64,000 nucleotides of DNA, taken from contig NZ_JPOI01000001.1 of assembly GCF_000733845.1 (NCBI RefSeq), forward strand, positions 2,915,001 to 2,979,000, written 5' to 3'. The notes under the pieces were generated by a model that was not told the origin of the DNA, ran no database searches, and was given only the letters and a program-made list of their open reading frames with translations. This document shows, one piece after another, positions 22,239 to 43,157 of this stretch. The stretch comes from Geobacillus vulcani PSS1 (GTDB taxonomy: Bacteria; Bacillota; Bacilli; Bacillales; Anoxybacillaceae). How positions within the stretch are numbered: the stretch's first letter is position 1; each line of letters starts with the position of its first letter. The translations under genes and the position numbers were made by a program.

Positions 22239-22253
22239 CGCGTTTCCTCCTGT

Positions 22254-23480: not shown

Positions 23481-23525
23481 CGTCCCTTCTCCCTTCTTTC
23501 CTATGACTTTTGTTTCCTTACTCAA

Positions 23526-24815: not shown

Positions 24816-24888
24816 CCCCTCTTTTCTATTTTGTTCTTAATGAAGTTGATAATATTTAAAACGTTCTGAAAGTTATGTTATACTATTA

Positions 24889-24927
24889 TTGTCCCATATA
24901 AAAGTTTTATATTCCTCTATACGAAAC
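24889..24927 (-). promoter_or_regulatory. 39-bp bipartite box, copy 1 (gentisate operon / iclR)
   Basis: The left half is TTGTCCCATATAAAA and the right half TTCCTCTATACGAAAC, in the same layout as three other copies. Divergent -10 elements overlap next to it: TATAAC on the minus strand (24877-24882) for the ligase operon and TATACT on the plus strand (24879-24884) for the iclR gene. For the ligase operon the box is upstream of -10; for iclR it is downstream, which suits activation of one and repression of the other. Confidence 0.75.
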
Positions 24928-24981
24928 ATCGTAAGATTTTTTGAAAACGATTTCTTTTAAGCGAAGGAGGAAGGGAAACTC

Positions 24982-25743
24982 ATGGGAGTGCGCAAAACTC
25001 GAACGTCTTTTTCTTCGTTAGAAAATGCGTTGAGACTGCTGCAGCTGTTTTCGATGGATGAAACAGAACTTAGCATCATCGATATTTCCGAGAGGCTGAA
25101 TATCAGCAAAAGCGCCGCCCACCGGCTGCTGCAAACGTTAAAAAGCGAGGGATTTGTCAAAAAAGACGCGAAAACCAATCTATATTCCCTCGGTGCTTCT
25201 TTACTAGCAATGAGAAAAATCATTCATTCCCGCTTTCCGATTTGCCAGATTGCTCTTCCTTTCTTGCAAGAACTTGTTTCGGTATCAGGAGAAAGCGCAC
25301 ATATCGCCACGTTGCACGGTGCTGATGTCATTTATTTGCACAAAGTAGAATGTGATCATCCGGTTCGCCTTCTTTCTTACGTAGGCAAAAAAAATCCAGC
25401 GTTTTGCACAAGCACCGGTCAAGCCATTCTTGCTTATCAGCCGAGGGAAACGATCGACCGCATCATCGCCCGTGGACTTCCTTCGTTTACACCAAGAACG
25501 ATCACCTCGCCATCGGCGCTTCTTGAAAAATTAACGCAAGTAAAACAACAAGGCTATGCCATCAGCAAAGAAGAACTTCATGAAGGGGTAACGTCAATCA
25601 GTGCTCCCATTCGTCACCGTAACGGTGAGGTGCGCTACTCTGTTTCCATCGCCGGACCAATCCAACGCATCAATGACCGTTCCATCCCTCATCTCGTACA
25701 GCTTGTCATGCAAACAGCCCATGCGATTTCTGCCAAACTGTAA
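24982..25743 (+). CDS. IclR-family regulator 1 (aromatic catabolism)
   Basis: A 253-residue IclR-family protein. The winged helix spans 10-70 (LSIIDISERLNISKSAAHRLLQTLKSEGF) and the effector domain 80-250, with the conserved pattern HPVRLLSYVGKKNPAFCTSTGQ and GYAISKEELHEGVTSISAPI. IclR proteins of this subgroup (PcaU, PobR) respond to aromatic acids and often activate. It is divergent from the gentisate operon and followed in tandem by a second IclR gene. GGAGGAAGGG precedes the ATG. Confidence 0.88.
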   Translation: MGVRKTRTSFSSLENALRLLQLFSMDETELSIIDISERLNISKSAAHRLLQTLKSEGFVKKDAKTNLYSLGASLLAMRKIIHSRFPICQIALPFLQELVSVSGESAHIATLHGADVIYLHKVECDHPVRLLSYVGKKNPAFCTSTGQAILAYQPRETIDRIIARGLPSFTPRTITSPSALLEKLTQVKQQGYAISKEELHEGVTSISAPIRHRNGEVRYSVSIAGPIQRINDRSIPHLVQLVMQTAHAISAKL

Positions 25744-25809
25744 AAACGATCCACCGAACTTATAGAACAAGCACAGATGTGATGAAAAAACAAAAGGAGG
25801 ATCCTTACT

Positions 25810-26577
25810 TTGGAAAAAATTACTGATACTCTTTCCTCTGTAAAAAACGGGATGCGCATTTTGCGTTTATTTTCTGTTGAAACGCCGGAACTAGGCGTTA
25901 CGGAGATGGCTCAACGACTCGGGCTGCACAAGACGACCGTACATCGATTAGCCACGCTATTAGAAAAAGAAGGATTTCTTGAACAAAATAAAAAAACTCG
26001 CAAATACCGCCTTGGCCTTTCCATTTTGCATTTAAGCGGAGTGGTTGATTTGCATACAGAAATATTTCAAGACGCCGTTCCGATCCTGGAATCTTTGATG
26101 AAAGAGGCTAATGAAGCTGTTCATTTATCTGTGTTGGAAGACGATCGAATTGTTTACCTGTACAAAATAGAATGCCCGCACCCAGTGCGCCTGCTCTCTC
26201 ATATCGGCCGAAGCAACCCGTGTACGTGCACAAGCTCGGGTAAAGTCATTCTAGCATTCAGTCCGAAATCGATAGTAGAAAGCATTCTCCGCCGCGGGTT
26301 GCCAAAATACGGACCGAACTCGGTGACCGACCAAAACGAGTTTATCCGCCAGTTAGCAGCCATCCGCCAGCAAGGGTACGCCGTCTGCATCGATGAACTC
26401 CATGAAGGAGCGACAAGCATCGCCGCCCCTATTCGCGACTATTCCGGTGAAGTCGTCGCCGCCGTCAGCATCGTCGGGCCAAATCAGCGGATTACTCAAG
26501 CAAACATTCTCCGTTTGGTTCAGCTCGCTTGCCAAGCCGCCCGCGACATTTCATTGCTGCTTGGATATTATGAATAA
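25810..26577 (+). CDS. IclR-family regulator 2 (aromatic catabolism)
   Basis: A 255-residue paralogue of the preceding regulator, starting with TTG after an AAAGGAGGA site. HTH at 12-70 (LGVTEMAQRLGLHKTTVHRLATLLEKEGFL), effector domain with HPVRLLSHIGRSNPCTCTSSGK and GYAVCIDELHEGATSIAAPI. It shares an operon with regulator 1 (66 bases apart) and has no box of its own. It ends head-on against the aldehyde dehydrogenase gene, with a bidirectional terminator between. Confidence 0.88.
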   Translation: MEKITDTLSSVKNGMRILRLFSVETPELGVTEMAQRLGLHKTTVHRLATLLEKEGFLEQNKKTRKYRLGLSILHLSGVVDLHTEIFQDAVPILESLMKEANEAVHLSVLEDDRIVYLYKIECPHPVRLLSHIGRSNPCTCTSSGKVILAFSPKSIVESILRRGLPKYGPNSVTDQNEFIRQLAAIRQQGYAVCIDELHEGATSIAAPIRDYSGEVVAAVSIVGPNQRITQANILRLVQLACQAARDISLLLGYYE

Positions 26578-26640
26578 AGCTTTCTCTAACCAAGTGCAAC
26601 CAATGACGAAAAAGATGGACTTCTTCCATATTATTACAAA

Positions 26641-26679
26641 AAGCCTGGAAGATCCGACTAAACCTGATCTCCCAGGCTT
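26641..26679. terminator. Bidirectional terminator
   Basis: AAGCCTGGAAGATC pairs with GATCTCCCAGGCTT. T-rich tracts follow on both strands. It separates iclR 2 from the convergent aldehyde dehydrogenase gene. Confidence 0.85.
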
Positions 26680-26687
26680 TCCCTTCA

Positions 26688-28148
26688 TTAAAATGGATAC
26701 GTTCTTGCCTTCGTCTGCACGGACACCCATTTCACTGTCGTAAATTCATCGACCACCCACGGATTTCCAAAACGGCCTAAGCCGCTTGCTTTATTGCCGC
26801 CAAACGGAATGTTTGGAGCGTCATTAACCGTCTGATCGTTAATGTGTGTCATTCCGCTGTCAATTTGCAACGCCCACTCTTTTCCTTTTTCAATATCACC
26901 CGTAAAAATAGCGGAACTGAGTCCGTATTCCGTTTGGTTAGCAATGGAGATTGCCTCTTCGTCTGTTTTCGCTTTAATCACCACCGCAATGGGGGCAAAC
27001 AGTTCTGTTTGGGCGAGCTTGCTTGCTGGATCGACATCAACAAACACATATGGGGTCAACACATTGCCGATCCGCTTTCCTTCCAAGGCCACTCGGACTC
27101 CTTCCCGCTTGGCTTCTTCAATCATCTGCAGCGCCTTTTGCATTTGCTTTTCGTTGATGATTGGCCCAATCACGGTGCTTGGGTCGCGCGGATCGCCGCA
27201 CGGAAGCGCAGCCGCCCTTTGCACGAACTTCTCGACGAATTCGTTATATTTGCTTTCATGGACAATAATGCGGTTGATGATCATGCAAATTTGTCCTTGA
27301 TGAATAAACTTGCCAAAAATCGCTGCATTCACTGCTTGATCTACATCCGCATCGGATAAAACAACAAACGGACTATTTCCCCCTAATTCCAATGCCACTC
27401 GTTTTAACTGTCTGCCGGCAATCTCACCAATTCGTCTGCCTACCGTCGTCGACCCGGTAAAACTGATAAGGCGTGAATGTGGATTGGTCAACATCTCATC
27501 GCCAATCTCATCAATGTCGGTTAACAAAACGTTCAATACCCCTTTCGGCAGCCCAGCGTACTCAAACGCTCGAGCAATCACCACACCCCCGACGAGTCCA
27601 ACTTGAATATCGGGTTTATGCACGACGGTATTGCCCAAGGCAATCGCAGGAACAATCGTGCGCAGCGATAAATTTAACGGGAAGTTAAATGGAGAAATGG
27701 AAGCAATCACCCCTAACGGCAACCGATAAATGTAGTTGACTTTCCCCTCTATGTTAGAAGGCACCTCTTTTACAGCTCCAACCTCATCAACATAATGTAG
27801 CGCCTCTTCCAAAAGCTCAAGCGCCAAATGAAACTCCACGTTCGCTTTCAGCAGTGTTCCGCCTGTTTCGCGGACAATCAAGTCGACGATCTCCTCACGA
27901 TTTGCTTGCAAATAGGCCATCGCTTTGTGCAACACTTCTTTTCGTTGGCCCGCTGAAGAACGCCCCCACTCCTTTTGCGCTTCGCTCGCCGCTTCAAATG
28001 CCCGATGAAGCTGTTCTGCTGTAGCCAACGGGATAGAGGCAATAACCGATCGATCATACGGATTCAAAATATCATAGGTACGGCCGCTTTCTCCTTCCAC
28101 CCATTCTCCATTAATAAAGCTTTTGTTCCATTGTTCGTACCGTTCCAT
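26688..28148 (-). CDS. Benzaldehyde-type aldehyde dehydrogenase
   Basis: A 486-residue NAD(P)+-dependent aldehyde dehydrogenase. The general base E254 lies in ALELGGNSPF and the catalytic C288 in FIHQGQICM; GRRIGEIAG is the cofactor loop. The QGQICM motif, instead of the more common QGQVC, is typical of the aromatic (benzaldehyde/vanillin dehydrogenase) subgroup that includes YfmT. It is the last gene of module B, behind an MFS transporter and a thiamine enzyme whose expected product is an aromatic aldehyde, so it would give the corresponding benzoate. 218 bases of non-coding sequence separate it from the transporter. Confidence 0.87.
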   Translation of the reverse strand: MERYEQWNKSFINGEWVEGESGRTYDILNPYDRSVIASIPLATAEQLHRAFEAASEAQKEWGRSSAGQRKEVLHKAMAYLQANREEIVDLIVRETGGTLLKANVEFHLALELLEEALHYVDEVGAVKEVPSNIEGKVNYIYRLPLGVIASISPFNFPLNLSLRTIVPAIALGNTVVHKPDIQVGLVGGVVIARAFEYAGLPKGVLNVLLTDIDEIGDEMLTNPHSRLISFTGSTTVGRRIGEIAGRQLKRVALELGGNSPFVVLSDADVDQAVNAAIFGKFIHQGQICMIINRIIVHESKYNEFVEKFVQRAAALPCGDPRDPSTVIGPIINEKQMQKALQMIEEAKREGVRVALEGKRIGNVLTPYVFVDVDPASKLAQTELFAPIAVVIKAKTDEEAISIANQTEYGLSSAIFTGDIEKGKEWALQIDSGMTHINDQTVNDAPNIPFGGNKASGLGRFGNPWVVDEFTTVKWVSVQTKARTYPF

Positions 28149-28205
28149 CTTCTTTCACTCCCTCTATCATGTTTATAAATCTAATAATTTTAATTTCTTT
28201 CAATA

Positions 28206-28326
28206 ATATATAAGTTGTAATAAAGAATTTCCGATCTCCATGCCTCGTCTTTATCACCTGACAAGCTGGCACGGTAACAAGAAGATCGAACAATGCCATG
28301 TAAAACAAAATTGCAACTTATATAGA
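28206..28326. repeat. Inverted ATATAAGTTG elements upstream of the aldehyde dehydrogenase
   Basis: ATATAAGTTGTAAT at about 28206 and, 100 bases on, ATTGCAACTTATAT at about 28311 are inverted copies of a 10-base core. The gap between the transporter and the dehydrogenase genes holds nothing else. They might be operator sites for a separate dehydrogenase promoter. Confidence 0.4.
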
Positions 28327-28366
28327 TAACGCTTTCAACCGTGAGACCACAAGCGGATCCTCTACC

Positions 28367-29749
28367 TCATAGAGTTATATTATTTGTTTCGGACACCCGA
28401 GAGGGTAGTTGTTTCAAATGACTGGAATTGCCCACATTATCAAAACTCCCAAATCTCTCCTGAACGCAAAGTAAGGCGAGAGCACCTATTATACTTGGAA
28501 CTGCGAAAACCATAAATGTTTTTTGTGGCGCAAGTCCTACCGCTAAAATTAAGGCGATCAACGTAGGAGCTACGACAGCACCAATTCTGCCAACCCCTAA
28601 CGCCCATCCGATTCCTGTAGCCCTTGCTTCCTTAGGATAATACTCTGAGATATAAGGATTGGCTAAATTTTGTGTGCCGACTGTGCATGCTCCCCCCATA
28701 GCTACAAGTACGTATAACATAAACAGATTTGAAGTCGCTCCCAAAATCACGAAACATACTGCCCCTAATATATACATCGAAACTAATACTTTTCTATGAC
28801 CGAGCTTTCCCGCTAAGAAACCACCGATCAACGAACCAGCAACTTGACCTATACATAGAACTATATTGAATACCAATCCCGATGAAAGACCATAACCAGA
28901 CTGTTGCATAATTTTCGGAAGCCATGTATTTAAGCCGTATACCATTAATAAACAACTAAATACAGCGATCCAAAAGGCAAAGGTGCTAATGGCCCGTTGT
29001 TTTTCAAACAACTTTTTGACTGGAAATCCCTTGGACTCATTTTGAATCTCTTCAAAACAATAATCATCTTCTTCCGTATAATCACCAAGGGGATTTATAC
29101 GATTTAAGATGCTACTCAGTTTCTTGGTTTGTCTTTTCAAAATGTAAAATGAAAGAGATTCTGGGAACTGTTTTAGGAGAAACGGAAGAACCAGCAGCGG
29201 AAACCCACCGACCCAATACAGAATTCTCCATCCTACTTCCGGAACTGCATATATTCCTAGCAACGATACTAGGATCCCACCGATAGAGTATCCACAGTAC
29301 ATTGTGGCGACAATAATCGTCCTGTTCGCCTTCGGGGAGTACTCTGTCATTAAAGAAATAGCATTAGCTGGTAACCCACCAATTCCTAATGCAGCAATAA
29401 AGCGCATAATAGTAAAAGCAATAGGACTATCAATTACTCCACCTAGAAATGTAAAGATACTGAATATGGTCATACATATGATCAACACTTTTTTTCTTCC
29501 TATTTTGTCTGCTAAAGGAGCAAATACTAACGCACCGATTATCATTCCGATCAGTGAATAGCTTCCTATAGCGCCGGCCTGAACCACTGTCAAATTCCAT
29601 TCTTTCATGAGTAAAGGCAAGCTTACTCCATATAAAGCAATGTCATATCCATCAAAAGTAATTGCAAAAAAACACCATAGATAGACCATAAGGTGAAATT
29701 TATTAAACTTACTAGTCGCCGCAACTTCCAATGCATTGACCTGACGCAT
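28367..29749 (-). CDS. Aromatic acid MFS transporter (AAHS family)
   Basis: A 460-residue proton symporter with 12 predicted spans. The first loop motif LADKIGRKKVLI and the N-terminal FAITFDGYDIALYGVSLPLL (with D in the first helix) are characteristic of the aromatic acid:H+ symporter family (PcaK, BenK). The DGYD motif is needed for aromatic substrate transport in PcaK. The start at 29749 has an AGGGGGATC site; the longer frame to 29851 adds a non-membrane extension without a ribosome site. It is the middle gene of module B and could import benzoylformate, mandelate or a hydroxybenzoate. Confidence 0.87.
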   Translation of the reverse strand: MRQVNALEVAATSKFNKFHLMVYLWCFFAITFDGYDIALYGVSLPLLMKEWNLTVVQAGAIGSYSLIGMIIGALVFAPLADKIGRKKVLIICMTIFSIFTFLGGVIDSPIAFTIMRFIAALGIGGLPANAISLMTEYSPKANRTIIVATMYCGYSIGGILVSLLGIYAVPEVGWRILYWVGGFPLLVLPFLLKQFPESLSFYILKRQTKKLSSILNRINPLGDYTEEDDYCFEEIQNESKGFPVKKLFEKQRAISTFAFWIAVFSCLLMVYGLNTWLPKIMQQSGYGLSSGLVFNIVLCIGQVAGSLIGGFLAGKLGHRKVLVSMYILGAVCFVILGATSNLFMLYVLVAMGGACTVGTQNLANPYISEYYPKEARATGIGWALGVGRIGAVVAPTLIALILAVGLAPQKTFMVFAVPSIIGALALLCVQERFGSFDNVGNSSHLKQLPSRVSETNNITL

Positions 29750-29855
29750 CTTGATCCCCCTAATAACTTTAATATTCGCGCGACTGCAAAAAGCCAACCT
29801 ACTTGGACAGGTTAGAAGTATATTACCTCCTTTACGACCGAAGCTTCTCATAATG

Positions 29856-31586
29856 TTACCACTCTTCTTGGACAGTAGGAAGATGAACGTCCAATACAGC
29901 CGCTCTCCCCTCTTCCAATGCCCTTAACCCACTCTGTAAGGCATCTTTCAGTTCATCAGGGCTTTTAACAGTCCTAGCGTAAGCTCCTCCGGCTGCCTCT
30001 GCGATTTTTGCCAGGTCTGCAGATGGCTCAAAACTCACCCAAAATTCATTTATTTTTCGTGCTGCCCCGTTCGGATGCACGCCTAATGTGGATAATTTAG
30101 GAGATTTCCATCCTTTGTTGTTGTATATAACAGTCAAAAATGGAGTTTGATATCTTCTAGCCATCCAGTGAACAGTAGAAGGGATGCTAAATAAATAGCT
30201 TCCATCTCCTGTTAAGTTAATAACCTTCTTATGCGGCAAGGCCAATTTTACTCCTATGCTAGCTCCACCGTTCCATCCTAGTGAGCCTGCACCACTTCCG
30301 ATAATAGATCCAGGCTTTGTCGCTCCAATATGTCTATATATCGTTTCATAATTAGAGATTCCTTCATTAACGATAATCGTGTTATCATCAACAAGTTCCC
30401 TAATGCACGCAGTTAAATACTCAGAGGTAATGATGCCCTCCCTATACGACTCTTTTTCTTTCCATTCCTTTCGTTGCTCGTGATGAATCCGCTCGACCCA
30501 CTTATATCTTTTCTGTACTGCATCCCAATTTACAGGAGTTTGCCGCAATAACCCATTTAGTTGTTTCAATGCTGTAAAGGAGTCCGCCCTAAAAAAGTGC
30601 TGAGAGGGAATGTACCATAATGGCATCTGTTCTTTAAGAGGATCTACGTCAATATAGTAAATTTTACAATATTCTGGCGGCTTATTTTTTATAGGAATCC
30701 ACGGTACATCGCTATCTAAGACTAGTATAACGTCTGCTTTAGTTAATAACATATTTTGGTCTTGTGAGTTCCATAAATAACCACAGTGCATAGGATGATT
30801 GCTTGGAAAGTTCATGTAATTAGGAACCGATTCAATAACCGGTATGGACAAGCGATCACTTAGCTCTACAAGTTCATCAACCGCTTTAGCATTTCTCCCC
30901 AAATAGGACGTTATAATTAACGGGTTATCTGCGTTTACCAAACTGCTCACAATTTCCCTTGCCCCTTCCTCAGGGAGGGCGGATGGCCGAATCGGCTCCC
31001 ACAACGCTGGATTAACTGTAACTCTACCAGTTTCTTCTTCCATTACCTCCCGAGGTCCAACTAAATATACTGGACCTTTTGGATCACTTTGGGCAATCTG
31101 TAACGCCCGATGCACCAATTGCTTTACATTTTTTCCTGATCGAATTTCGTTATTGTACTTAACGTATCCCCTTACTATCCCTCTTTGATCAAAGACATCC
31201 TGTATCCAATGGATAAACTCGTTTCTACTTCCCACCATTTCTCCTTCCTGCGTGAAAGGAGAAGCGCCAGCAAAAATGAGTACAGGGATTCTCCCTTTTG
31301 CCGCATTATGGATAGCTCCGCCAAGATTTTGTGTACCACATTCAACATGCACGAGAACTGCCTGAGGCTTTCCAGTAACCTGCGCAAATCCATGCGCTGC
31401 ACTGAGTGCTACCATTTCATGTGGACAAGTGATCACTTTAGGAAGCTCGATCCCCTTCTGACTAGCCTCTGCTAGACCTTCTATAATCGCAGGATGATCG
31501 CTACCTAAGTTACAAAAGATATAGGATACACCAGCTTCTTGCAGAGCCTCTAAAAAAGCGGTGCCGGTAGTATATTTATCGAACAC
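29856..31586 (-). CDS. Thiamine diphosphate-dependent decarboxylase-like enzyme
   Basis: A 576-residue protein of the acetolactate synthase/benzoylformate decarboxylase superfamily. The N-terminal pyrimidine-binding domain has the catalytic glutamate E57 in CPHEMVALSAAHG; the C-terminal domain has the ThDP motif GDGSYLF...NN at 460-490, and SGAGSLGWNGGASIGVKLA precedes it. The sequence is not a close match to acetolactate synthase (no FAD-domain length) nor to pyruvate decarboxylase. Located with an aromatic MFS transporter and benzaldehyde-type dehydrogenase, it may decarboxylate an arylglyoxylate such as benzoylformate or 4-hydroxybenzoylformate. Specificity is inference. It leads module B. 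Confidence 0.8.
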   Translation of the reverse strand: MFDKYTTGTAFLEALQEAGVSYIFCNLGSDHPAIIEGLAEASQKGIELPKVITCPHEMVALSAAHGFAQVTGKPQAVLVHVECGTQNLGGAIHNAAKGRIPVLIFAGASPFTQEGEMVGSRNEFIHWIQDVFDQRGIVRGYVKYNNEIRSGKNVKQLVHRALQIAQSDPKGPVYLVGPREVMEEETGRVTVNPALWEPIRPSALPEEGAREIVSSLVNADNPLIITSYLGRNAKAVDELVELSDRLSIPVIESVPNYMNFPSNHPMHCGYLWNSQDQNMLLTKADVILVLDSDVPWIPIKNKPPEYCKIYYIDVDPLKEQMPLWYIPSQHFFRADSFTALKQLNGLLRQTPVNWDAVQKRYKWVERIHHEQRKEWKEKESYREGIITSEYLTACIRELVDDNTIIVNEGISNYETIYRHIGATKPGSIIGSGAGSLGWNGGASIGVKLALPHKKVINLTGDGSYLFSIPSTVHWMARRYQTPFLTVIYNNKGWKSPKLSTLGVHPNGAARKINEFWVSFEPSADLAKIAEAAGGAYARTVKSPDELKDALQSGLRALEEGRAAVLDVHLPTVQEEW

Positions 31587-31760
31587 TTTCTCCCCCCCTT
31601 TTTTTCACTAGCTCCCTTTCCCCTCTTCTCGTGACAGTTTATTATTCCCTATATTCGCCATAGCTCACCTCAAGCGAACATTAAACCCCTCCCCCCAATT
31701 ATTAAATTAACTTTTATTTTAAATATTAAAAATATTATTAATATTATTTTAATACATAAA

Positions 31761-31799
31761 TTGTTTCGCATGGAAACCTTGCATTCCTCTATATGAAAT
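31761..31799 (-). promoter_or_regulatory. 39-bp bipartite box, copy 2 (thiamine enzyme operon)
   Basis: Left half TTGTTTCGCATGGAA, including a perfect GTTTC-GCATG-GAAAC inverted repeat, right half TTCCTCTATATGAAAT. It lies 175 bases upstream of the thiamine enzyme start. A TAAAAT -10-like hexamer is on the minus strand at 31746-31751. The rest of the 400-base gap to the ABC transporter genes is A/T-rich without any other clear feature. Confidence 0.75.
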
Positions 31800-31989
31800 A
31801 AAACTAGAAATCGTATGGCTACTCTTGATTAGGAAACGATGCTGTGGGAATCTCTCATCCCGTAATAGCAGCTTTATCAATTTCTTTGGATAATACCTAA
31901 CAAGTCTGAAAGATGATCCTTTTCCTTCAAACTCAACATTAAGTTGGATGTGCATACTGTGGCAATCATCAGTTTTTGATCAAAAATGT

Positions 31990-32700
31990 CTAACTCGAAA
32001 CCCCTAGATACTTATGCCTGACATCTTCATTGGCCATCAATTCATTCGGCGAACCGCTCCATACAATTTTCCCTTTATTCATGACCAAAATTTCATCTGC
32101 TGTTTTGCAGGCGAGGGCGATATTTTGCTCCACAATCAAAATCGACAACCCCGCTTCTTTCAACTGAACGATAATCTCCCCAACCTGGTCAATAATGATC
32201 GGCGCCAGCCCTTCAGACGGTTCATCCATTAACAAAAGCTCGGGATTGGTCATCAGCGCTCGCCCAATCGCCAGCATTTGCTGCTGGCCGCCTGACAACT
32301 GCGTGCCTAAGTTGTTCTCCCGTTCCTTTAAGACAGGAAACAACTGATAAACATTCTCCAGCTCCCAATGGCCGCGTCCTTCCTGCTCTCGTTTCCGCGC
32401 CGGCATCGTCAAATTTTCTTTTACCGTCAACGACGGAAAGATTCTCCTCCCCTGCGGCACAAACCCGATGCCAAGGCGAGAAATTTGATGGGGAGGAAGC
32501 GATTCAATCGATCGATCTTTGAACCGAATGCTTCCTTGTCTTGCCTTATGCAACCCGACAATTGTATGAATGGTAGTCGTTTTTCCTGCTCCGTTCCGTC
32601 CAAGCAAAGCGACGCATTTTCCTTTTGGAACAGAAAAGCTGACTCCCTGAAGAATGTAACTCGTTCCATAGTACGAGTGAACATCTTGGAGCTCAAGCAT
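31990..32700 (-). CDS. livF: Liv-type ABC importer ATPase (LivF-like)
   Basis: A 236-residue ATPase of the branched-chain amino acid/aromatic transport family. Walker A GRNGAGKTT, signature LSGGQQQMLAIGRALM, Walker B LLLMDEPSEGLAP and H-loop IVEQN are present; DEPSEGLAP is the LivF hallmark. ATG 32700 overlaps the livG-like stop by 8 bases and has GGAGGAGG upstream; the frame upstream to 32760 lies inside livG. It ends the module C operon. Confidence 0.9.
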   Translation of the reverse strand: MLELQDVHSYYGTSYILQGVSFSVPKGKCVALLGRNGAGKTTTIHTIVGLHKARQGSIRFKDRSIESLPPHQISRLGIGFVPQGRRIFPSLTVKENLTMPARKREQEGRGHWELENVYQLFPVLKERENNLGTQLSGGQQQMLAIGRALMTNPELLLMDEPSEGLAPIIIDQVGEIIVQLKEAGLSILIVEQNIALACKTADEILVMNKGKIVWSGSPNELMANEDVRHKYLGVSS

Positions 32701-34434: not shown

Positions 34435-34435
34435 T

Positions 34436-35296: not shown

Positions 35297-35349
35297 CTCT
35301 CATCCTACCTTTTTTTCTAAATTTTCAGTTCTAGTGCTAATTTTTTAGG

Positions 35350-35375
35350 AAGGAGGAGACGACCATCTCCTCCTT
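35350..35375. other. Intercistronic hairpin between binding protein and permease genes
   Basis: AAGGAGGAGA and TCTCCTCCTT form a perfect 10-bp stem with a 6-base loop, 10 bases beyond the livK-like stop. There is no U-run on either strand, so it is more likely an mRNA 3' stabiliser that lets the abundant binding protein be made in excess than a full terminator. Confidence 0.7.
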
Positions 35376-35384
35376 GCTGGTGAA

Positions 35385-36617
35385 TTAAAATGGTGAGTCC
35401 TCGGGCATCTTGACATTCTCTACGGTCTCCATGATTTGGGGAACGATGGCACCGTCTTTTAAAACATTTTTTGAAATATAGAAATTTTGAACTGGGTTAT
35501 GTGTTGCCGGATCGATCGTAATTTTACCACGCGGGCTATCGAGAGAAATGCCTTTCAAGACTTTAATCAAATCCTGAGAGTTTAAACTTCCAGCTTTATT
35601 TATCGCTTGATCAATCGCTGCCGCTGAGTCGTATCCTTGGACGGCAAAAATATTTGGCAATTTTCCATATTTCTCTTTATAAGCTTCAACAAATTGTTTA
35701 TTTTGTTCGTTGTCTAAGTACGGTGAATAGTTAATCCCAGCGATGATGCCTTCAGCCGCTTCCCCAGTAGGCTGAGTTAAAAGCTCATCCCCAAACTCCA
35801 GAGAACCTGTCAACGGAATCTTCCCTTTCAAACCAAATTCTTTATACTGAGTAATAAACCTAATGCCGTCGCTTCCAGTAAAGAACGCGTAAATGAAATC
35901 CGGTTTTTCCGCTGACGCCTGCTGAAGATACGGGGCGAAATCGTTCGTGTTCAACTTCGGATAAATTTCTTTCAAAACTTTTCCACCCGCTGCTTCAAAG
36001 GTAACCTTGAACGCCCGAAGCACTTCCTTCCCAGCTGGGTAGTCCGGAGCAAGGATAACGGCTTTTTTGCCGACTTGTTCTGCTAAATATTTCGCGGTGC
36101 TGCTACCGTTTTGCCAGTTCGAGAATGAGACACGGTAGACGTAATCGCTCTTTTTGCTCCACGAAAGATCATCACCAGCAGCGTTGGCATCGATTAGCAC
36201 TTTTTTGTCCTTTTCGACTTCATCACGCAAGGCATACGCAACCGCTGAAGAAATCGGTCCTACAAGGATATCAGCTTTTTCACCATGAACTAATTGCCGA
36301 TATTTACGCAAAGCCACCTGTGGGTTCGCTTCATCATCTTCCACCTTCATTTCAACCTTCTTTCCACCAAGCATCCCGTTATGCTGTTCTAAATACAGTT
36401 GAAAACCGTTGATGATCCCTTCGGATAGAGGAGCAAACGTACCGGTTTGCGAAAGAATAAAACCGATTTTGACCGATCCCCCTGAATCTCCTCCATTGCC
36501 CTTATCTGAACCGGATCCACTCGATGTGTTACTTTGCGCACATCCCGCCGTCATGAGCAAGGCGGCCATCACCATCATCCCCATTGCCCGTTTCCAAAAC
36601 CCTTTCGTTTTCCTCAT
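35385..36617 (-). CDS. livK: Substrate-binding lipoprotein of the Liv-type importer
   Basis: A 410-residue type I periplasmic-binding-fold protein. The signal peptide ends in the lipobox LMTAGC, with lipidated Cys26, then a Ser/Gly-rich linker (GSGSDKGNGGDSGGS) before VKIGFILSQTGTFA at about 50. Such proteins bind branched-chain amino acids, amides or aromatic acids (as HmgE/CouP-type proteins do). It leads an operon transcribed from a promoter with the 39-bp box found before the aromatic operons, so an aromatic acid is the probable ligand. AAGGAGG is upstream. Confidence 0.88.
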   Translation of the reverse strand: MRKTKGFWKRAMGMMVMAALLMTAGCAQSNTSSGSGSDKGNGGDSGGSVKIGFILSQTGTFAPLSEGIINGFQLYLEQHNGMLGGKKVEMKVEDDEANPQVALRKYRQLVHGEKADILVGPISSAVAYALRDEVEKDKKVLIDANAAGDDLSWSKKSDYVYRVSFSNWQNGSSTAKYLAEQVGKKAVILAPDYPAGKEVLRAFKVTFEAAGGKVLKEIYPKLNTNDFAPYLQQASAEKPDFIYAFFTGSDGIRFITQYKEFGLKGKIPLTGSLEFGDELLTQPTGEAAEGIIAGINYSPYLDNEQNKQFVEAYKEKYGKLPNIFAVQGYDSAAAIDQAINKAGSLNSQDLIKVLKGISLDSPRGKITIDPATHNPVQNFYISKNVLKDGAIVPQIMETVENVKMPEDSPF

Positions 36618-36767
36618 TCTTCTCGCCTCCTTTGGTTATTAAAGCGTTTTCATTTTTTGTAAAGTGAATCAATCACCAATCAAGAAAATGAAAACCCATC
36701 CCCAGCGCATGCCACGGAATATATTGTAAATATTTAAAAGATTACAACTATTATATTAATGCAAAAG

Positions 36768-36806
36768 TTGTTGCGTATGAAAGCGCTGTACTCCTCTATA
36801 TGAAAC
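36768..36806 (-). promoter_or_regulatory. 39-bp bipartite box, copy 3 (Liv-type importer)
   Basis: Left half TTGTTGCGTATGAAA, right half CTCCTCTATATGAAAC, in the same frame as the other copies. A perfect TATAAT is on the minus strand at 36740-36745. About 150 bases upstream of the livK-like start. Confidence 0.75.
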
Positions 36807-36854
36807 AAAACTAAAAGCAATGTTTTTTCAGCAGGAAACCAAATGAAACAACTT

Positions 36855-37709
36855 TCACGAGTGCTGTGCAGTCTGTTGCGGAACGTACAACGTCTTGTAT
36901 TGGACAGGGGCAGGTTCGAACGTCATTACCACATTCCCACTGCCGGATGATTGGCCATACCCATAATAACGGCTGTGATAGTTTTCTTGAATGACACCAA
37001 GCAAGGCGGCCAAGTGGCGGCCTCCGGATTCAACACCGGCTGCTCGCGCGTATTGCGGAAGCATGTTCCAAGCGGCTCGCACACGATTGTTTTGTAAATA
37101 TTGCAAAAATTCTCGGTCCAACGCCTGCTCGGCCAATGTCGGTAGCGCCTCGGGTCGCCGAACGAGGTTATGCGCTAACGCACCGCTACATACAAACATC
37201 GTCTTTTTCTTGCTTTCACGCAACACTTTGCCGATCACTTGTCCCCACGTATACGTTTCTTCCAAGTTGGCTGCCCACGTCACCGATAGACTAATAACAG
37301 CGATATCCTCATTTGGCACTAAGTAGCGAAGAGGAACGACCGTCCCGTAATCCCAAATGTAGGTTGGATCGTTGACTTCAACGACCCGAAGCCCTGCTTC
37401 TTTCCCCACCTTCACAAGTTGTTTACCAAGCTCTTCATCCCCTGGATAATCGTAAGGGACATCAGCAATCAAATCCGGACATTCTACAGCGGTCAATATC
37501 CCCTTATGTCTTGGGGTGGCATCAACGAAATGGTCGAAACTTGACATCCAATGGCACGAGATCAAAACAAGGGTATCCGGTTTGACTTGCTCGACGATTT
37601 TCGCCACTTCGTGCATTCCTTTGACGAGTTCATGTTGAAACTCAGGAGTGCGATCCTCAAAACACATTCGCGGCGTATGCGGAACAAGCATGGCTAACTC
37701 CAAACTCAT
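36855..37709 (-). CDS. Class III (LigB-type) extradiol dioxygenase, likely protocatechuate 2,3-dioxygenase
   Basis: A 284-residue LigB-superfamily Fe(II) ring-cleavage enzyme. Expected ligands are H11 in LVPHTPRM, H53 in ISCHWMSS and E227 in GVESGGRH; H180 in SGALAH fits the acid/base histidine. Usual meta operons of this gene order use a class I enzyme at this place; a class III enzyme fits protocatechuate 2,3-dioxygenase (PraA) of Paenibacillus, and the divergent ACMSD-type decarboxylase supports this. 3,4-dihydroxyphenylacetate dioxygenase is the alternative. It ends the module D operon. The ATG at 37709 has AGAGGAGG upstream. Confidence 0.8.
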   Translation of the reverse strand: MSLELAMLVPHTPRMCFEDRTPEFQHELVKGMHEVAKIVEQVKPDTLVLISCHWMSSFDHFVDATPRHKGILTAVECPDLIADVPYDYPGDEELGKQLVKVGKEAGLRVVEVNDPTYIWDYGTVVPLRYLVPNEDIAVISLSVTWAANLEETYTWGQVIGKVLRESKKKTMFVCSGALAHNLVRRPEALPTLAEQALDREFLQYLQNNRVRAAWNMLPQYARAAGVESGGRHLAALLGVIQENYHSRYYGYGQSSGSGNVVMTFEPAPVQYKTLYVPQQTAQHS

Positions 37710-37734
37710 CGTGATTTTTCCTCCTCTTCCATTT

Positions 37735-37923
37735 TCATTGTTTATCGGACATTGGGATACCGGCGACACCCCAATGAGATTTTGGCACTTCTGACACGAT
37801 GACCCGCACGTTTTCCTTTGGCGAGCCTAAAACAGTGCTGATTGTATCAGTTACTTCGCGAATGACTCCTTGAATCTTTTCTTCCGGCCTTCCTTCGAGC
37901 AAATAGATATGAACAATCGGCAT
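37735..37923 (-). CDS. dmpI: 4-oxalocrotonate tautomerase
   Basis: A 62-codon tautomerase. Processing of the Met exposes catalytic Pro1 (MPIVHIYLLEGR), and the arginines in EGR (11) and VRV (39) match the substrate-binding arginines of 4-oxalocrotonate tautomerase. The start must be ATG 37923 to provide Pro1; an upstream ATG would abolish activity. It isomerises 2-hydroxymuconate to 2-oxohex-3-enedioate in the meta pathway, between the dehydrogenase and decarboxylase steps. Three extra C-terminal residues compared with classic 62-residue mature forms are not evident. Confidence 0.92.
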   Translation of the reverse strand: MPIVHIYLLEGRPEEKIQGVIREVTDTISTVLGSPKENVRVIVSEVPKSHWGVAGIPMSDKQ

Positions 37924-37939
37924 GCGGATCATCCTTTCC

Positions 37940-38725
37940 TTAATCTGTCGCTCGGAACGAAACCGTTCCTAATTGATCGAACTGGGCAAACACGACATCC
38001 CCTGCCACAAAGCGGACAGCTTCCGTCATCGCTCCAGCTAAAATGATTTCCCCAGCTTTCAGTCCTTCCCCTTTTCTGGACAGCATGTTAGCCAGCATGG
38101 CAATCGCGTTAGCTGGATGCCCCAACACCGCCGCACCAGCACCGAACGCCTTTCCTTCACCATTGATTGATAAACTCACTCCAAGCAAGTCGAGTTCAAG
38201 GGCGCTTGGAGAAACAAGGCGGCTTCCGAATACGACTCGGGATGAGGAAGCGTTGTCGGCAATCACATCCATCAGCGTAAATTGAAAGTTAGTATAGCGG
38301 CTATCAATAATTTCTAAAACCGGGATGATATACTGCGTTGCCTCTAAAATGTCTGCCGCGTCAATATTCGGCCCTTTAACATCTTCTTTTAAAATGAAGG
38401 CGATTTCCGCTTCCACCTTCGGATGGATCAGCTCATTCATGGCCACCGTCCCCCCGTTAGAGACGACCATATAATCGAACACATATCCGTAGATCGGCTC
38501 GTTCACCCCCATTTGCGCCATTTTCGCGGCGCTCGTCAATCCCATTTTTGGGCCGATGATGCGATAGCCGTTCTCCCGTTTCATCGCCACGAGCCGCTCT
38601 TGAACAGCATACGCCTCCTCAACCGTCATGTTTGGATATTGAACAGTTAGGCGAACAATTTCTCTCTTCTCATATTCAGCATTCAGAAGCTCCACAGCGA
38701 GTTTTCCATAGTCAAGAGAGGTCAT
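37940..38725 (-). CDS. dmpH: 4-oxalocrotonate decarboxylase
   Basis: A 261-residue FAH-like enzyme. It matches the decarboxylase rather than its hydratase paralogue by [21 protein letters not shown] and [34 protein letters not shown] holds the metal ligands. It removes CO2 from 4-oxalocrotonate, working as a complex with the hydratase encoded at 40667. ATG 38725 overlaps the aldolase stop (ATGA). The gene order C-E-F-G-H-I is exactly that of dmp/xyl operons, which independently assigns it. Confidence 0.9.
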
Positions 38726-39753
38726 CGCCACTCTCCCTCCCCGACAGTAGCCTTTTGGCGTGCCATTTCAGCAGCGACATCGACAATCATATCTTCTTGA
38801 CCGCCAACAACCTTTCGACGGCCAAGTTCGATTAAAATATCGCGGACATCGATGCCAAACATTCGAGCGGCCCGTTGCGCGTGAAGAAGGAAGCTTGAAT
38901 AAACCCCCGCATATCCGAGAGTCAAACTGTCGCGCGTAATCTCCTGAGCTTTTGGCAAGATCGGTGCCACAAGCTGCTCGGCCAAATCCATCATTTTATA
39001 CAAATCAATGCCGGTCGGAATGCCCATCCGATCCAACACCGCAACAAGCACTTCCGTCTGCGTGTTCCCAGCGCCAGCCCCTAAACAGCGAACACTGCCG
39101 TCAACGCGCGTCGCTCCTTCCTCGATCGCGGCTAATGTATTGGCCATCGCCAATGACAAATTGTTATGAGCGTGGAAACCAACCTCAATTCCAAGACTTT
39201 CCCTTAATGCACGAACGCGCTCTTTCACTTCATGCGGCAAGAGGGCGCCGGCTGAATCTACGACATAGACGACATCCGCTCCGTAGCTTTCCATAAGCTG
39301 CGCTTGATGGACAAGCACCTCCACAGGCGCCATATGCGACATCATTAAAAACCCGGCTGTTTCCATTCCAAGCTCCTTCGCTGCGGAAATATGTTGGGCT
39401 GAAATATCTGCCTCGGTCACATGAGTGGCGACGCGTACCATTTTCGCTCCTAAGCGAGCGGCCTGTTTCAATTCCTTAACCGTTCCGATGCCAGGAAGAA
39501 GAAGCACTGCAATTTTGGCCTGCCGACAAACTGCCACAGCTGTTTCAATCAGTGCAAATTCATCGGTACGCGACAATCCATACTGCAGCGAAGACCCGCC
39601 CAAACCATCTCCGTGCGATACTTCAATATACGGAACGTTCGCTTCATCGAGCGCTTTGGCGATCATGGCCACTTGCTCCGTTGTATATTGGTGGGCGATG
39701 GCGTGGCTGCCGTCACGCAATGCCACTTCTGTAATCGTAATTGCTCGCTTCAT
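38722..39753 (-). CDS. dmpG: 4-hydroxy-2-oxovalerate aldolase
   Basis: A 343-residue TIM-barrel class II aldolase of the HMGL-like family. [16 protein letters not shown] at the N-terminus carries the metal-binding aspartate (14) and catalytic histidine (21); [23 protein letters not shown] holds the other metal histidines. It splits 4-hydroxy-2-oxopentanoate into pyruvate and acetaldehyde. It forms a channelling complex with the acetaldehyde dehydrogenase, whose gene overlaps it by ATGA. Confidence 0.95.
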
Positions 39754-40649
39754 CGTTTTCCCTCCTCAGCCAACAACTTCGACAGTCGATGTTTCGCGAC
39801 TTCTTCCGCCACTTTCACCGCAGCGGCAGTCATAATATCCAAGTTTCCGGCATACTTCGGTAAATAATCGCCCGCTCCTTCGACTTCAATCATCACCGTC
39901 ACCTTATTCCCTTCAATGATCGGACTTGTGCGCAACCGATAGCCGGGAACGTACGAACGAATGGTTTCTACCATTTCCTCGATCGAATCGCAAATTTCGC
40001 GCGCCGCTGCTTTATTTCCTTCCACAAGTGCATAAATCGTATTTCTCATCAAAATGGGTGGCTCAGCCGGGTTGAGAATAATGATGGCTTTTCCGCGCTT
40101 TGCCCCACCGATTTTTTCAAGCCCTCGAGCAGTCGTTGCTGTAAATTCATCAATGTTCGCTCTTGTCCCTGGCCCTGCGCTTTTGCTTGAAATCGTCGCG
40201 ACAATTTCAGCGTAAGCGACCGGTTGGACGCGTCCAATGGCATGAACGATCGGAATCGTCGCCTGTCCACCACATGTGATGAAGTTAATGTTGGTTTCTT
40301 CTAAATGGTCCGTTATATTAACAGGCGGCACAACAAACGGTCCAACGGCCGCCGGCGTCAAATCAAAGACGACCCTCCCGATCCGCTTCAACAGCTTTGC
40401 ATGACGGATGTGCGCTTTCGCCGACGTCGCATCAAAGACGAAATCCGCCCATTCCGGGTGTTCTAAAAACGTTTGAATGCCGCTGTCAATGACGCGATAC
40501 CCTTTCTCCCGCGCCAGACGCAACCCTTCCGACTGCGGATCGATCCCAATTACTGTCGTCAACCGCAACACATCCGAACGCTCAAGCTTCAACATCAAGT
40601 CAGTTCCGATATTTCCAGAACCAAGAATCGCTACATTGATCTTCTCCAC
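39750..40649 (-). CDS. dmpF: Acetaldehyde dehydrogenase, acylating
   Basis: A 299-residue enzyme. The Rossmann loop GSGNIG is at 10-15 and the catalytic C126 in [14 protein letters not shown]. It oxidises acetaldehyde from the partner aldolase to acetyl-CoA with NAD+ and CoA. Standard length and standard neighbours. Confidence 0.95.
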
Positions 40650-40666
40650 AGTCTCTCCTCCCTTAC

Positions 40667-41449
40667 TTATGGCGCAAACTCGACCCGCACTTCCCCCAAA
40701 TGGGCGAAGCGAGCGAAAAACACATCGCCGGGCTCGACGCTCACCGCTGCCGACAAAGCGCCGGATAAAATCACTTCCCCTGCTTTCAACTCTTTTCCAT
40801 ATTCATGGAGCTTGTTTGCCAGCCAAGCGACACAAAGCGCAGGATGTCCGAGCGCTGCGGCCCCAACGCCCGTATTGGCCAACTTCCCGTTTCGATAAAG
40901 AGCCATGCCGATTTGCGCAATATCAACGGCATGAACAGGCAACCGTTTTTCCCCCAAAACATAAAGTCCCGATGAAGCGTTATCGGCGATTGTATCCTCA
41001 AGACAGATATTCCAATCGGCAATGCGGCTGTCAACGATCTCCAGCGCCGGGACGATATAATCCGTCGCCAGTAGCACATCAATGACAGTCACGCGCGGGC
41101 CAACTAAGTCACGTTTTAAGACAAACGCAATTTCCGCTTCCATCTTTGGCTGCAACACTTGCTCCCACGAAACAACCCCACCGTTTTCCACCGCCATATC
41201 ATCAAGCAAATGGCCATAATCCGGCTGGTCAACCCTCAACAACTGCTGCATCGCCTTAGAGGTCAATCCGATTTTCTTGCCGACAATCTGACGCCCTTCC
41301 TTTACTTTTTGTTCAATTGTCCTTAATTGAATTTGATAGGCGTCATACACGGTTAGCGCCGAATCGAGTGTCGTCAAGGGAGAGAGAGGACGTCTCTCCC
41401 TCTCAGCAGCCAGCAGTAACTTGGCATAATCGTTCCACTTCTTCACCAT
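40667..41449 (-). CDS. dmpE: 2-oxopent-4-enoate hydratase
   Basis: A 260-residue paralogue of the decarboxylase, of the MhpD/XylJ kind. It is told apart by [27 protein letters not shown], where the decarboxylase has KMAQMGV. Metal ligands are in [10 protein letters not shown]. It adds water to 2-oxopent-4-enoate to give 4-hydroxy-2-oxovalerate. Several starts are possible (41455, 41452, 41449, 41446); the third fits GGAGGTG best. Confidence 0.9.
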
Positions 41450-41473
41450 CATCACCTCCTTCGGTCATCGCGG

Positions 41474-42949
41474 CTAAAGCTTAATGCAAATATTCGTCAA
41501 CTCTGTATAAAACTCAAAGCTATGCATGCCTCCTTCACGCCCAATGCCGCTTTGTTTCATGCCACCAAACGGTGTGCGCAAATCCCGCAAAAACCATGTA
41601 TTTACCCAAACGATTCCGGCTTCAATACGCGCCGCCACCCGGTGAGCCCGACGCAAATCGTTCGTCCAAATCGTCGCGCTCAATCCATAGTGGGTGTCGT
41701 TCGCTTGGGCGATCACCTCCTCTTCTTCGTCAAACGGCATGACCGTCACCACCGGGCCGAACACTTCTTCCCGGATGATGCGGCAATTTCGGTTGACACC
41801 GACAATAATGGTCGGTTCAAGGTAATATCCTTGAGCCAGGCCATCCGGTCGCTTACCTCCTGTTAGAATACGACCACCTTCCTCCTTTGCTAGCTCGATG
41901 TAGCTCATCACCCGTTCGTAATGCTCTTCGCTGATGAGTGCGCCGACATTGGTTTTCGGGTCAAACGGATCGCCGACAACAAGTTCTCTCGTTTTCGCTA
42001 CAAATTTTTGCAAAAATTGTTCATAAACCGGCCGTTCTACATAAATTCTTGATCCGCAGAGACACACTTCTCCTTGGTTCATAAAACTCGATTTCAACGT
42101 TGTCTCGATCGCTTCGTCCAAATCTGCATCGGCGAAAATGATGTTCGGATTTTTCCCCCCCAACTCGTAAGACAGCTTTTTTAACGATTTCGCCGCTGCC
42201 GCCATAATGACTTTCCCTGTTGTTGTCTCTCCGGTGAACGTAATAGCGTCAACATCCGGATGCTCGCTCAACGCAGCCCCTGCTGAGTTCGGGCCAAATC
42301 CATGGACAACATTCACCACGCCATCCGGCACCCCGGCTTCTTTGCAAATTTCTGCCAATACAGTTGCAGTGAGCGGCGTCCATTCCGCCGGCTTGATGAC
42401 GGCTGTATTACCAGCGGCCAAACACGGGGCGAGCTTCCATGTCAACAACAGCAATGGCAAATTCCACGGATTGATCAACCCGACGACCCCAACAGGCCGA
42501 CGGATCGAATAGTTGATAGCTACCTCATCGGTTTGATACGCTTCCGTGCCAACCGAACGCAAGTAGTCGGCGAAAAAATGGAAATTATACGCTGCACGCG
42601 GAATATCCAACGTGAGGGAGAGCGAATATGGCTTTCCCGTATCAAGCGACTCGAGGCGAGCCAATTCCTCTTTGCGCTCTAAAATGAGATCACCGATACG
42701 CCGCAAAACTGCGATCCGCTCCCCTGTCGTCATCCGCTTCCATGGACCATCCAACGCTCTTCTTGCAGCGGCTACGGCCAAGTCAATCTCTTCTTTTCCT
42801 CCTTCACAGACAGTGCCGATCACTTCCCCCGTAGCGGGATTGATATTTGGAAACACCTTTCCGCTTTTTGAAGGCAAAAACCTCCCATTGATGAAATGTT
42901 GACAGTCAAACGCTTTCACTTTCTCACTGATCATTGCTTCTGTTTGCAT
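41474..42949 (-). CDS. dmpC: 2-hydroxymuconic semialdehyde dehydrogenase
   Basis: A 491-residue aldehyde dehydrogenase. The general base is in SYELGGKNPNI and the catalytic cysteine in FMNQGEVCLCGSRIYV. The motif GEVCLCGSR is characteristic of the XylG/DmpC/PraC subgroup. It oxidises 2-hydroxymuconate semialdehyde to 2-hydroxymuconate. It is the first gene of the module D operon with GGGAGGAG upstream and is transcribed away from iclR 3 through a region holding a 39-bp box. Confidence 0.92.
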   Translation of the reverse strand: MQTEAMISEKVKAFDCQHFINGRFLPSKSGKVFPNINPATGEVIGTVCEGGKEEIDLAVAAARRALDGPWKRMTTGERIAVLRRIGDLILERKEELARLESLDTGKPYSLSLTLDIPRAAYNFHFFADYLRSVGTEAYQTDEVAINYSIRRPVGVVGLINPWNLPLLLLTWKLAPCLAAGNTAVIKPAEWTPLTATVLAEICKEAGVPDGVVNVVHGFGPNSAGAALSEHPDVDAITFTGETTTGKVIMAAAAKSLKKLSYELGGKNPNIIFADADLDEAIETTLKSSFMNQGEVCLCGSRIYVERPVYEQFLQKFVAKTRELVVGDPFDPKTNVGALISEEHYERVMSYIELAKEEGGRILTGGKRPDGLAQGYYLEPTIIVGVNRNCRIIREEVFGPVVTVMPFDEEEEVIAQANDTHYGLSATIWTNDLRRAHRVAARIEAGIVWVNTWFLRDLRTPFGGMKQSGIGREGGMHSFEFYTELTNICIKL

Positions 42950-43024
42950 TCAATGTCTCCTCCCTTGTCAGAAAGCATCGAAATCAAAGAATTTAGAATC
43001 TTTTGTCCCCATCATAATGATTTG

Positions 43025-43063
43025 TTGTACCGTATACAACACTAATGTTCTTTTATATGAAAC
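43025..43063 (-). promoter_or_regulatory. 39-bp bipartite box, copy 4 (meta-cleavage operon)
   Basis: Left half TTGTACCGTATACAA, itself an inverted repeat, right half TTCTTTTATATGAAAC, same geometry as the other three. A TATGAT -10-like hexamer for the dehydrogenase gene is on the minus strand at 43011-43016. Confidence 0.78.
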
Positions 43064-43122
43064 AATAAAAAATTTTTTATTTTTATTCTTTGTGATATTT
43101 TCAAAAATCATGTTCCCTATGT

Positions 43123-43157
43123 TATGATATAAGAAATATTGTTCTTTTATATGAAAC
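43123..43157 (+). promoter_or_regulatory. iclR 3 promoter with single half-box
   Basis: TATGAT at 43123-43128 is a -10 for the plus strand. TTCTTTTATATGAAAC at 43142-43157 is identical over 16 bases to the right half of box 4 and lies at the expected transcript start, directly before the AAAGGAG site, as expected for autorepression. Confidence 0.65.

Follow-up and report, generated by a model that had tools for sequence, protein, structure and literature searches.

We describe a 39-bp box that stands upstream of four catabolic and transport operons in a 64,000-nucleotide stretch of the Geobacillus vulcani PSS1 genome (contig NZ_JPOI01000001.1, positions 2,915,001 to 2,979,000 of the forward strand; hereafter the window). 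This box is probably a tandem operator that is joined to the promoter of each catabolic operon and recognised by tetrameric IclR regulators of the PraR/PcaU/PobR type. An earlier note on this DNA had proposed an IclR-type operator shared by the four operons, and the proposal is supported by the match of the right half of the box to a published IclR consensus (14-15 of 17 positions), by the co-occurrence of box and regulator throughout the order, and by boxes lying over the regulator's own start.

The box and its anatomy

All four 39-mers were found on the plus strand of the window with the positions and elements that had been reported for them, and every one is located 5′ of a minus-strand operon, these being the operons for a CoA ligase and gentisate, a thiamine diphosphate (ThDP) enzyme, a Liv-type importer and meta-cleavage (Table 1). 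The composite pattern gave 4 matches in the window, compared to none in 100 dinucleotide shuffles. When up to 3 mismatches were allowed over the whole genome (3.39 Mb), the only matches were the window's own four and the reversed control gave none; the many random hits that, according to the earlier note, would refute its proposal did not appear (4 hits in 3.39 Mb). A sequence model made from 31 boxes found the four window boxes in the same genome at E <1e-4 and, up to E 10, one further region, 43128-43157, with E values of 0.07 on one strand and 0.22 on the other (the model was applied to 150 of 978 first-look candidates). By itself, the right element has exactly five occurrences in the genome, always inside the window. 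The fifth occurrence, at 43142, had been taken for a single right half-box, but is actually the right part of a degenerate full box, here called box 4′, which is clearer in relatives. Within the box, pairwise identity is 64-77%, compared to 19-37% in the 100-bp flanks in the same register (52% for one AT-rich pair), and the boxes are therefore not pieces of a longer repeat. Hence, the four boxes are real and, at up to 3 mismatches, unique in the genome.

Dyad scores computed along the profile of the 31 boxes revealed an overall dyad about position 21 (0.54, compared to 0.21-0.35 at the other long axes tried), which pairs the right site (positions 23-39) with an inverted copy (3-19) whose centre is 20 nt away and which is poorly palindromic (0.26). 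The right half is itself palindromic (0.42 over 23-39, 0.53 over 23-38) and agrees with the IclR group 1 consensus, the dyad GKTYCRYW3-4RYGRAMC (PMC8222616; this paper and PMC12455638 are cited throughout from excerpts of their text), at 11-16 of 17 positions over the 31 boxes and 14-15 in the window, so that the right half of all four window boxes has the dyad of an IclR group 1 operator. A shorter left dyad over positions 1-15 scores 0.48; the left half therefore copies the right mainly in its outer arm and core. The earlier note had treated the left element purely as an operator, which does not hold, as its ATACAA, or the equivalent, would be the -35 of the promoter. The left element is thus predicted to combine an outer IclR half-site (GTNNC) with a promoter -35. 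The small left dyads described in boxes 2 and 4 (GTTTC/GAAAC and TTGTA/TACAA) are present, as judged by eye.

The excerpts of PMC8222616 (Suvorova and Gelfand 2021) report tandem IclR sites for 94 of 181 groups, at distances of 18-22 nt, an over-representation of GTT-11-AAC motifs in Firmicutes, and IclR-family autoregulation and regulons of aromatic metabolism. Because this consensus, this tandem spacing and such aromatic regulons are all reported there, the box is close to a described kind of operator. It shares the right-half consensus and, probably, the arrangement of two sites (20 bp apart) with these tandem group 1 operators, which control aromatic catabolism and Liv-type transport genes, as is predicted here, and include cases of autoregulation, but its left site is degenerate and merged with a predicted -35. 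A search of open-licence literature, covering titles and the starts of abstracts, found no description of the 39-bp box.

The IclR regulators and the spread of the box

Five IclR genes are present among the open reading frames of the window, and a genome search with IclR3 gave seven matches. IclR1, IclR2 and IclR3, encoded next to the boxes, had been called near-identical, but their mutual identity is 42, 45 and 48%. All three carry the HTH_IclR and IclR_C Pfam domains above gathering scores. Solved IclR structures match IclR1 and IclR3, and the sequence matches include 8eju, a Pca-regulon regulator, and 5hpf (PobR). In a tree of 59 IclR rows, the clades of IclR1 (9), IclR2 (9) and IclR3 (29) join as a group of 47 with 95/94 support and some long branches; hence, the three are paralogues of one clade, and they probably overlap in what they bind. 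Their recognition helices differ at one consistent residue before an R, reading H-R in 18/18 IclR1/2 rows and S-R in 29/29 IclR3 rows. A box scoring above 18 is found within about 420 bp upstream of 7/9 IclR1, 1/9 IclR2 and 26/29 IclR3 genes and of 1/12 rows outside the clades, although boxes had guided the choice of some of the loci and some boxes belonged to the training set of the matrix. This matrix, which was also used for the remaining boxes and the dispersed loci below, was trained on 31 boxes that include many from family genomes and named loci. IclR2 is mostly the second gene of a tandem pair; iclR1 and iclR2 are direct neighbours in the window, but 1.8 kb separates them in genome G021 (L060 9026-10862; G and L numbers are our handles for genomes and loci). 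Neither IclR4 (49172) nor the IclR gene at 4103-4852 has a box above score 18 in the same upstream range.

Among the named loci that a search with iclR3 brought up is Geobacillus jurassicus, at 96%. At the Paenibacillus validus locus (L057), the gene order is regulator, LigB, semialdehyde dehydrogenase, hydratase, acetaldehyde dehydrogenase, aldolase, decarboxylase, amidohydrolase. This order (R-A-B-E-G-F-D-H) matches the published praRABEGFDCHI of Paenibacillus sp. JJ-1b (PMC12455638), the cluster for protocatechuate 2,3-cleavage, and iclR3 is therefore called PraR-like by gene order. According to the excerpts, pra transcription in JJ-1b is regulated by PraR (PMC12455638), and the pra gene paper (Kasai 2009) is cited among the cases of IclR-family autoregulation (PMC8222616). 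As in JJ-1b, iclR3 is divergent from pra-like genes; unlike there, three paralogues and four operons are present here, including a gentisate branch and a Liv importer.

The pattern was found in 6 of 41 family genomes (16 boxes) and its reversed control in none of the 41, while 8/41 gave a match to IclR3 with 45% identity or more across at least 230 residues, among them all 6 with boxes. In G031, of this set of eight, the matrix finds a more-mismatched box at iclR3. Box 4 is found in G018, G021, G032 and G035, with more diverged copies in distant Bacillota. When a matrix of the four window boxes alone was applied to ten distant named loci (L049-L058, 13-21 kb, from Bacillus, Ammoniphilus, Aneurinibacillus, Paenactinomyces and Paenibacillus), the best hit lay at the promoter of iclR3 or of the meta-cleavage operon in 10/10, and exceeded all six first-order Markov sequences made per locus in 9/10. 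Among 299 genomes of the order, the box model gave a hit at E 0.01 in 28, of which 12 reached 0.001 (22 candidates scored per genome, with stricter filters). An IclR3 search hit at E 1e-60 was present in 11/12 genomes with a strong box, compared to 11/287 without (Fisher p 2e-13), and at a box E of 0.01 in 15/28 compared to 7/271. Some of these regulator hits are only 42-46% identical, and clade placement applies to those in the tree. Many of the single weak box hits are probably due to chance.

Boxes occur at several separate places in G211 (L114, L126), G133 (L120, L125, L129) and G236 (L118, L119), and at L119, L126 and L129 the box lies upstream of an aldehyde dehydrogenase gene 63% identical to that of the window, so that the regulon can be dispersed. 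The idea of one regulon for the island is thus retained in that the four operons share the box, but not in its confinement to the island, as several relatives have boxes at separate genome places. G033 has IclR1/2 and box 1 and neither IclR3 nor box 4, while G031 has IclR3 and its boxes and no IclR1/2; both regulator lines therefore go with the same kind of box. At the G031 locus (L080 12660-13568), the iclR3 orthologue and its boxes are kept, and the window's meta-cleavage genes were not found in the surrounding 30 kb.

Promoter register, proposed mechanism and alternatives

A -10-like hexamer follows the box at 8-9 nt in most of the chosen promoters. In 35 hand-picked catabolic promoters (family boxes 1-4 and one or two catabolic boxes per distant genome), a TANNAT starts +8 nt from the box edge in 25 and +9 in 7 (32/35); the next commonest offset has 6/35, and TANNAT is at neither position in G133, G248 and G096. 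The 35 do not include the L058 catabolic box, a matrix hit at background, or the L052 box, whose neighbours include no catabolic gene of the window set. The 24 meta-cleavage-type promoters belong either to the operon or to a homologue of an operon gene standing alone; in these, the mean -10 score has its maximum at +8 (4.67, compared to a null maximum of 0.29 in 2000 rotations), as it does for the 19 distant promoters alone (4.08, compared to 1.02). Read leftward, positions 15-10 of the box are TTGTAT in 17/24 of these promoters and TTG with other bases in 6 more. Hence CAA, the TTG of the predicted -35, stands at positions 13-15 in 23/24 of them but in 0/17 chosen regulator-gene boxes, as is expected if CAA belongs to the -35 of the leftward promoter. 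The 17 were hand-picked and others exist (e.g., L118, L131, L056 and L057); L047 and L048, probably the same records as G018:C3 and G035:C26, are outside the 24, and L047 gave one of the 17.

In the family, TANNAT is at +8 in 6/6 box-1 copies and at +9 in 5/5 box-2/3 copies, with an extra TANNAT at +3 in 6/6 and at +12 in 4/5, respectively. The -10-like hexamers had been placed 6-22 bases away; they do lie near the boxes, but the range was loose, and TANNAT starts at +8 for boxes 1 and 4 and at +9 for boxes 2 and 3. The remaining 26 boxes, taken regardless of their neighbours (all others above score 25 in 20 stretches that were chosen for holding box hits), have TANNAT at +8 or +9 in 12 cases, 11/17 with CAA and 1/9 without; leaving aside 5 boxes viewed earlier (L126, L129, L117, L116 and L114), the count is 10/21 (9/15 with CAA, 1/6 without). 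The predicted transcription starts of the four operons, near 24868, 31739, 36746 and 43004 on the minus strand, place the right dyad at about -43 to -60 and the left half at about -23 to -40. As judged by eye, several distant relatives have a -10-like sequence for the regulator gene just upstream of this gene's box.

As for binding, tetramer formation, ligand and sign of control, the most likely mechanism is inferred to be as follows. The right half is a strong group 1 dyad, and the left half would be a weaker inverted copy 20 bp away, the middle of which doubles as a poor -35 (TTGTAT, TTTTAT, TTTCAT) of the leftward promoter, with the predicted -10 located 8-9 bp past the box. Without aromatic acid, the regulator would occupy both halves and cover the -35, whereas with ligand it would keep the right dyad, free or reshape the left site and assist RNA polymerase at the weak -35. 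Two facts, that the strong dyad stands immediately upstream of a poor -35 and that the weak site covers this -35, are most simply accommodated by a tetramer blocking the -35 in the absence of ligand and aiding polymerase in its presence. The degenerate box 4′ over the predicted -10 and start of iclR3 would lead to autorepression of this regulator, as had been proposed. A more far-reaching version, which we put forward tentatively and consider doubtful as a whole, is that box and -10 make up a portable unit of promoter and operator, in which the -35 is part of one of the two IclR dimer sites, in fixed register. Such a unit would have been reused at several unlinked operons in Bacillales and their relatives, with as many as three cross-acting paralogues reading it, and one tetramer would shut the promoter via the left site and open it via the right.

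Several observations weigh against a tandem operator of this type built into the promoter. The left half (3-19) matches the group 1 consensus at 9-12 of 17 positions and, with a palindrome score of 0.26, is a weak dyad. The three regulators score 164.7, 159.6 and 175.9 bits against TIGR02431 (PcaR/PcaU/PobR), for which the cut-off is 284.75 bits, and since they are below it, we say that they would work like PcaR/PcaU/PobR and do not file them as members. In the score test, +8 is not the peak for the 11 promoters of boxes 1-3 (offset 32 is best, p 0.01), 14/26 of the remaining boxes lack TANNAT at +8 or +9, the -10 and -35 score weights were entered by hand, and orthologous promoters are not independent. 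In the relatives, G039, also one of the eight family genomes with an IclR3 match, has broken IclR1/2-like copies that contain stops and no box; the best hit in L058 does not exceed its Markov sequences; in L059 (Cellulomonadaceae) the best hit (14.2) exceeds them, yet is 5 kb away from its IclR gene; a regulator hit without a strong box occurs in 11 genomes (4 of these have a weak one); and G309 has a strong box and no regulator hit at E 1e-60.

Two other readings accept an IclR operator, and each of them seems to us somewhat improbable, yet deserves serious consideration. In one, there is no single regulon, and separate regulators use look-alike operators, IclR1/2 acting on boxes 1-3 and IclR3 on boxes 4 and 4′. 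The consistent H-R and S-R difference between the recognition helices is consistent with this, as are G033 and G031, where each regulator line is accompanied by its own boxes only, and the base preferences: in boxes 1-3, A/C precedes TTC or TCC and positions 13-15 are AAA/GAA, compared to G and CAA in box 4. However, CAA tracks the leftward meta-cleavage-type promoter and not the regulator, being absent from all 17 chosen regulator-gene boxes, and G096 has a CAA box even though both of its E 1e-60 hits fall in the IclR1/2 clades. The difference between boxes 1-3 and box 4 had at first looked like regulator specificity, but the regulator-gene boxes and G096 tie its CAA part to the embedded -35, and we keep this reading as an alternative only. 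The other reading, to which we give about the same weight, is that of a pure repressor, which would cover the -35 and the starts and merely be released by aromatic acids, with no activation. The left half on the -35 and box 4′ on the -10 and start of iclR3 are in keeping with simple repression, but the -35 hexamers are poor and the strong dyad lies upstream, at about -51, a position where activators often bind. Among related regulators, PcaU and PobR are reportedly activators, and PcaR is said to both activate and repress.

That the boxes represent a conserved element of another kind, promoter or RNA, unrelated to IclR, is very improbable in our view: part of the left element is indeed a predicted promoter -35, but the right half fits the IclR consensus, the boxes co-occur with IclR3-like regulators throughout the order and lie over the regulator's own start, and no Rfam family matched in the window at gathering scores. 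Chance similarity among AT-rich intergenic DNA can be regarded as already refuted. The upstream regions are AT-rich, and the right half alone, at up to 2 mismatches, gives 62 genome matches compared to 35 in the reversed control; the 39-mer, on the other hand, gives 0 in shuffles and reversed controls and is conserved across genera. A tandem IclR operator fused to the promoter thus remains the likely explanation.

Neighbouring features and significance

The features are collected in Table 1, where the box-1 operon is inferred from gene order and strand; its gene set resembles what we take to be a CoA-dependent route to gentisate.

Table 1. Boxes, predicted promoter elements and genes (window positions)
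Feature	Position	Strand	Remarks
Box 1	24889..24927	+	between leftward CoA-ligase/gentisate operon and rightward iclR1; in 6/41 family genomes including its own
Box 2	31761..31799	+	upstream of ThDP enzyme-MFS-ALDH (major facilitator superfamily, aldehyde dehydrogenase) genes; also in G021
Box 3	36768..36806	+	upstream of Liv-type ABC (ATP-binding cassette) importer operon; also in G018, G021
Box 4	43025..43063	+	between leftward meta-cleavage (pra-like) operon and rightward iclR3
Box 4′	43119..43157	+	degenerate full box over iclR3 promoter/start; fuller copies in relatives
Right IclR group 1 dyad, box 1	24911..24927	+	15/17 consensus positions; about -43 to -59 from predicted start
Right IclR group 1 dyad, box 4	43047..43063	+	15/17 consensus positions; about -43 to -59
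Predicted -35 TTTTAT, in box 1	24898..24903	-	
Predicted -10 TAACAT, box 1	24875..24880	-	+8 from box 1 edge, alternative TAGTAT at +3; 6/6 box-1 orthologues
Predicted weak -35 TTCCAT, in box 2	31770..31775	-	
Predicted -10 TAAAAT, box 2	31746..31751	-	+9
Predicted weak -35 TTTCAT, in box 3	36777..36782	-	
Predicted -10 TAATAT, box 3	36753..36758	-	+9; alternative TATAAT at +12
Predicted -35 TTGTAT, in box 4	43034..43039	-	TTG in 23/24 meta-cleavage-type promoters
Predicted -10 TATGAT, box 4	43011..43016	-	+8; 5/5 family box-4 promoters
Predicted iclR3 -10 TATGAT	43123..43128	+	within left half of box 4′; by eye
iclR1	24982..25743	+	HTH_IclR and IclR_C
iclR2	25810..26577	+	HTH_IclR and IclR_C
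iclR3 (PraR-like)	43179..43982	+	HTH_IclR and IclR_C; followed by amidohydrolase-family gene 44004-44942
Box-1 genes	19232..24815	-	PaaK-like CoA ligase, FAD hydroxylase, thioesterase, FAA hydrolase, DinB-like, gentisate-dioxygenase-like cupin
Box-2 genes	26688..31586	-	ThDP enzyme, aromatic-acid MFS transporter, aldehyde dehydrogenase
Box-3 genes	31990..36617	-	substrate-binding protein, LivH, LivM, LivG, LivF homologues
Box-4 genes	36855..42949	-	hydroxymuconic semialdehyde dehydrogenase, hydratase, acetaldehyde dehydrogenase, aldolase, oxalocrotonate decarboxylase, LigB-type extradiol dioxygenase

A second gentisate set (cupin, CoA ligase, FAA hydrolase) is located at 45193-49954 of the window with its own IclR, IclR4, which is 28% identical to IclR1 and whose gene has no box upstream. 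Candidate CcpA cre sites (consensus TGNAANCGNWWNCA, with 1 mismatch) were found at 36639-36652 in the importer leader, at 24942-24955 between box 1 and iclR1, and at 28324-28337 upstream of the aldehyde dehydrogenase gene. This pattern has 37 matches in the window compared to 20 expected, an excess that suggests catabolite repression of the box cluster. A cre site had also been suspected within box 3, but the strict pattern with one mismatch misses this box. Between boxes 4 and 4′, an A/T-tract (AATAAAAAATTTTTTATTTTTATT) at 43064-43087, similar in many relatives as judged by eye, is possibly a bend or an UP element. The spacing of these two boxes also raised the idea that the DNA may loop between them.

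Among known systems, PcaR of Pseudomonas putida reportedly acts by binding the -35 and -10 elements, a finding attributed to Guo and Houghton (1999). PcaR is likewise an IclR regulator of 4-hydroxybenzoate/protocatechuate genes with sites on core promoter elements, but whereas it binds both -35 and -10, the window box covers the predicted -35 and stops 8-9 bp short of the -10. PcaU and PobR of Acinetobacter belong to the same regulator family and substrate class, and the solved relatives 8eju and 5hpf are among the sequence matches. Their operator, as described in the excerpts of PMC8222616, is a GTNCG-type palindrome with an extra direct half-site, while the window box has an AT-rich core and an inverted pair. 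Hence, as read from the DNA, the switch is real, well placed and recurring in relatives with such regulators, yet of a known kind.

For Geobacillus-like thermophiles and their relatives, this provides a testable regulon for aromatics of the 4-hydroxybenzoate/protocatechuate type, comprising four operons and as many as three regulators, with promoter elements predicted at exact positions, in which one putative control element ties together a gentisate branch, a protocatechuate 2,3-cleavage-like branch and a Liv-type importer. The built-in -35 suggests a way in which one operator may both block and activate.

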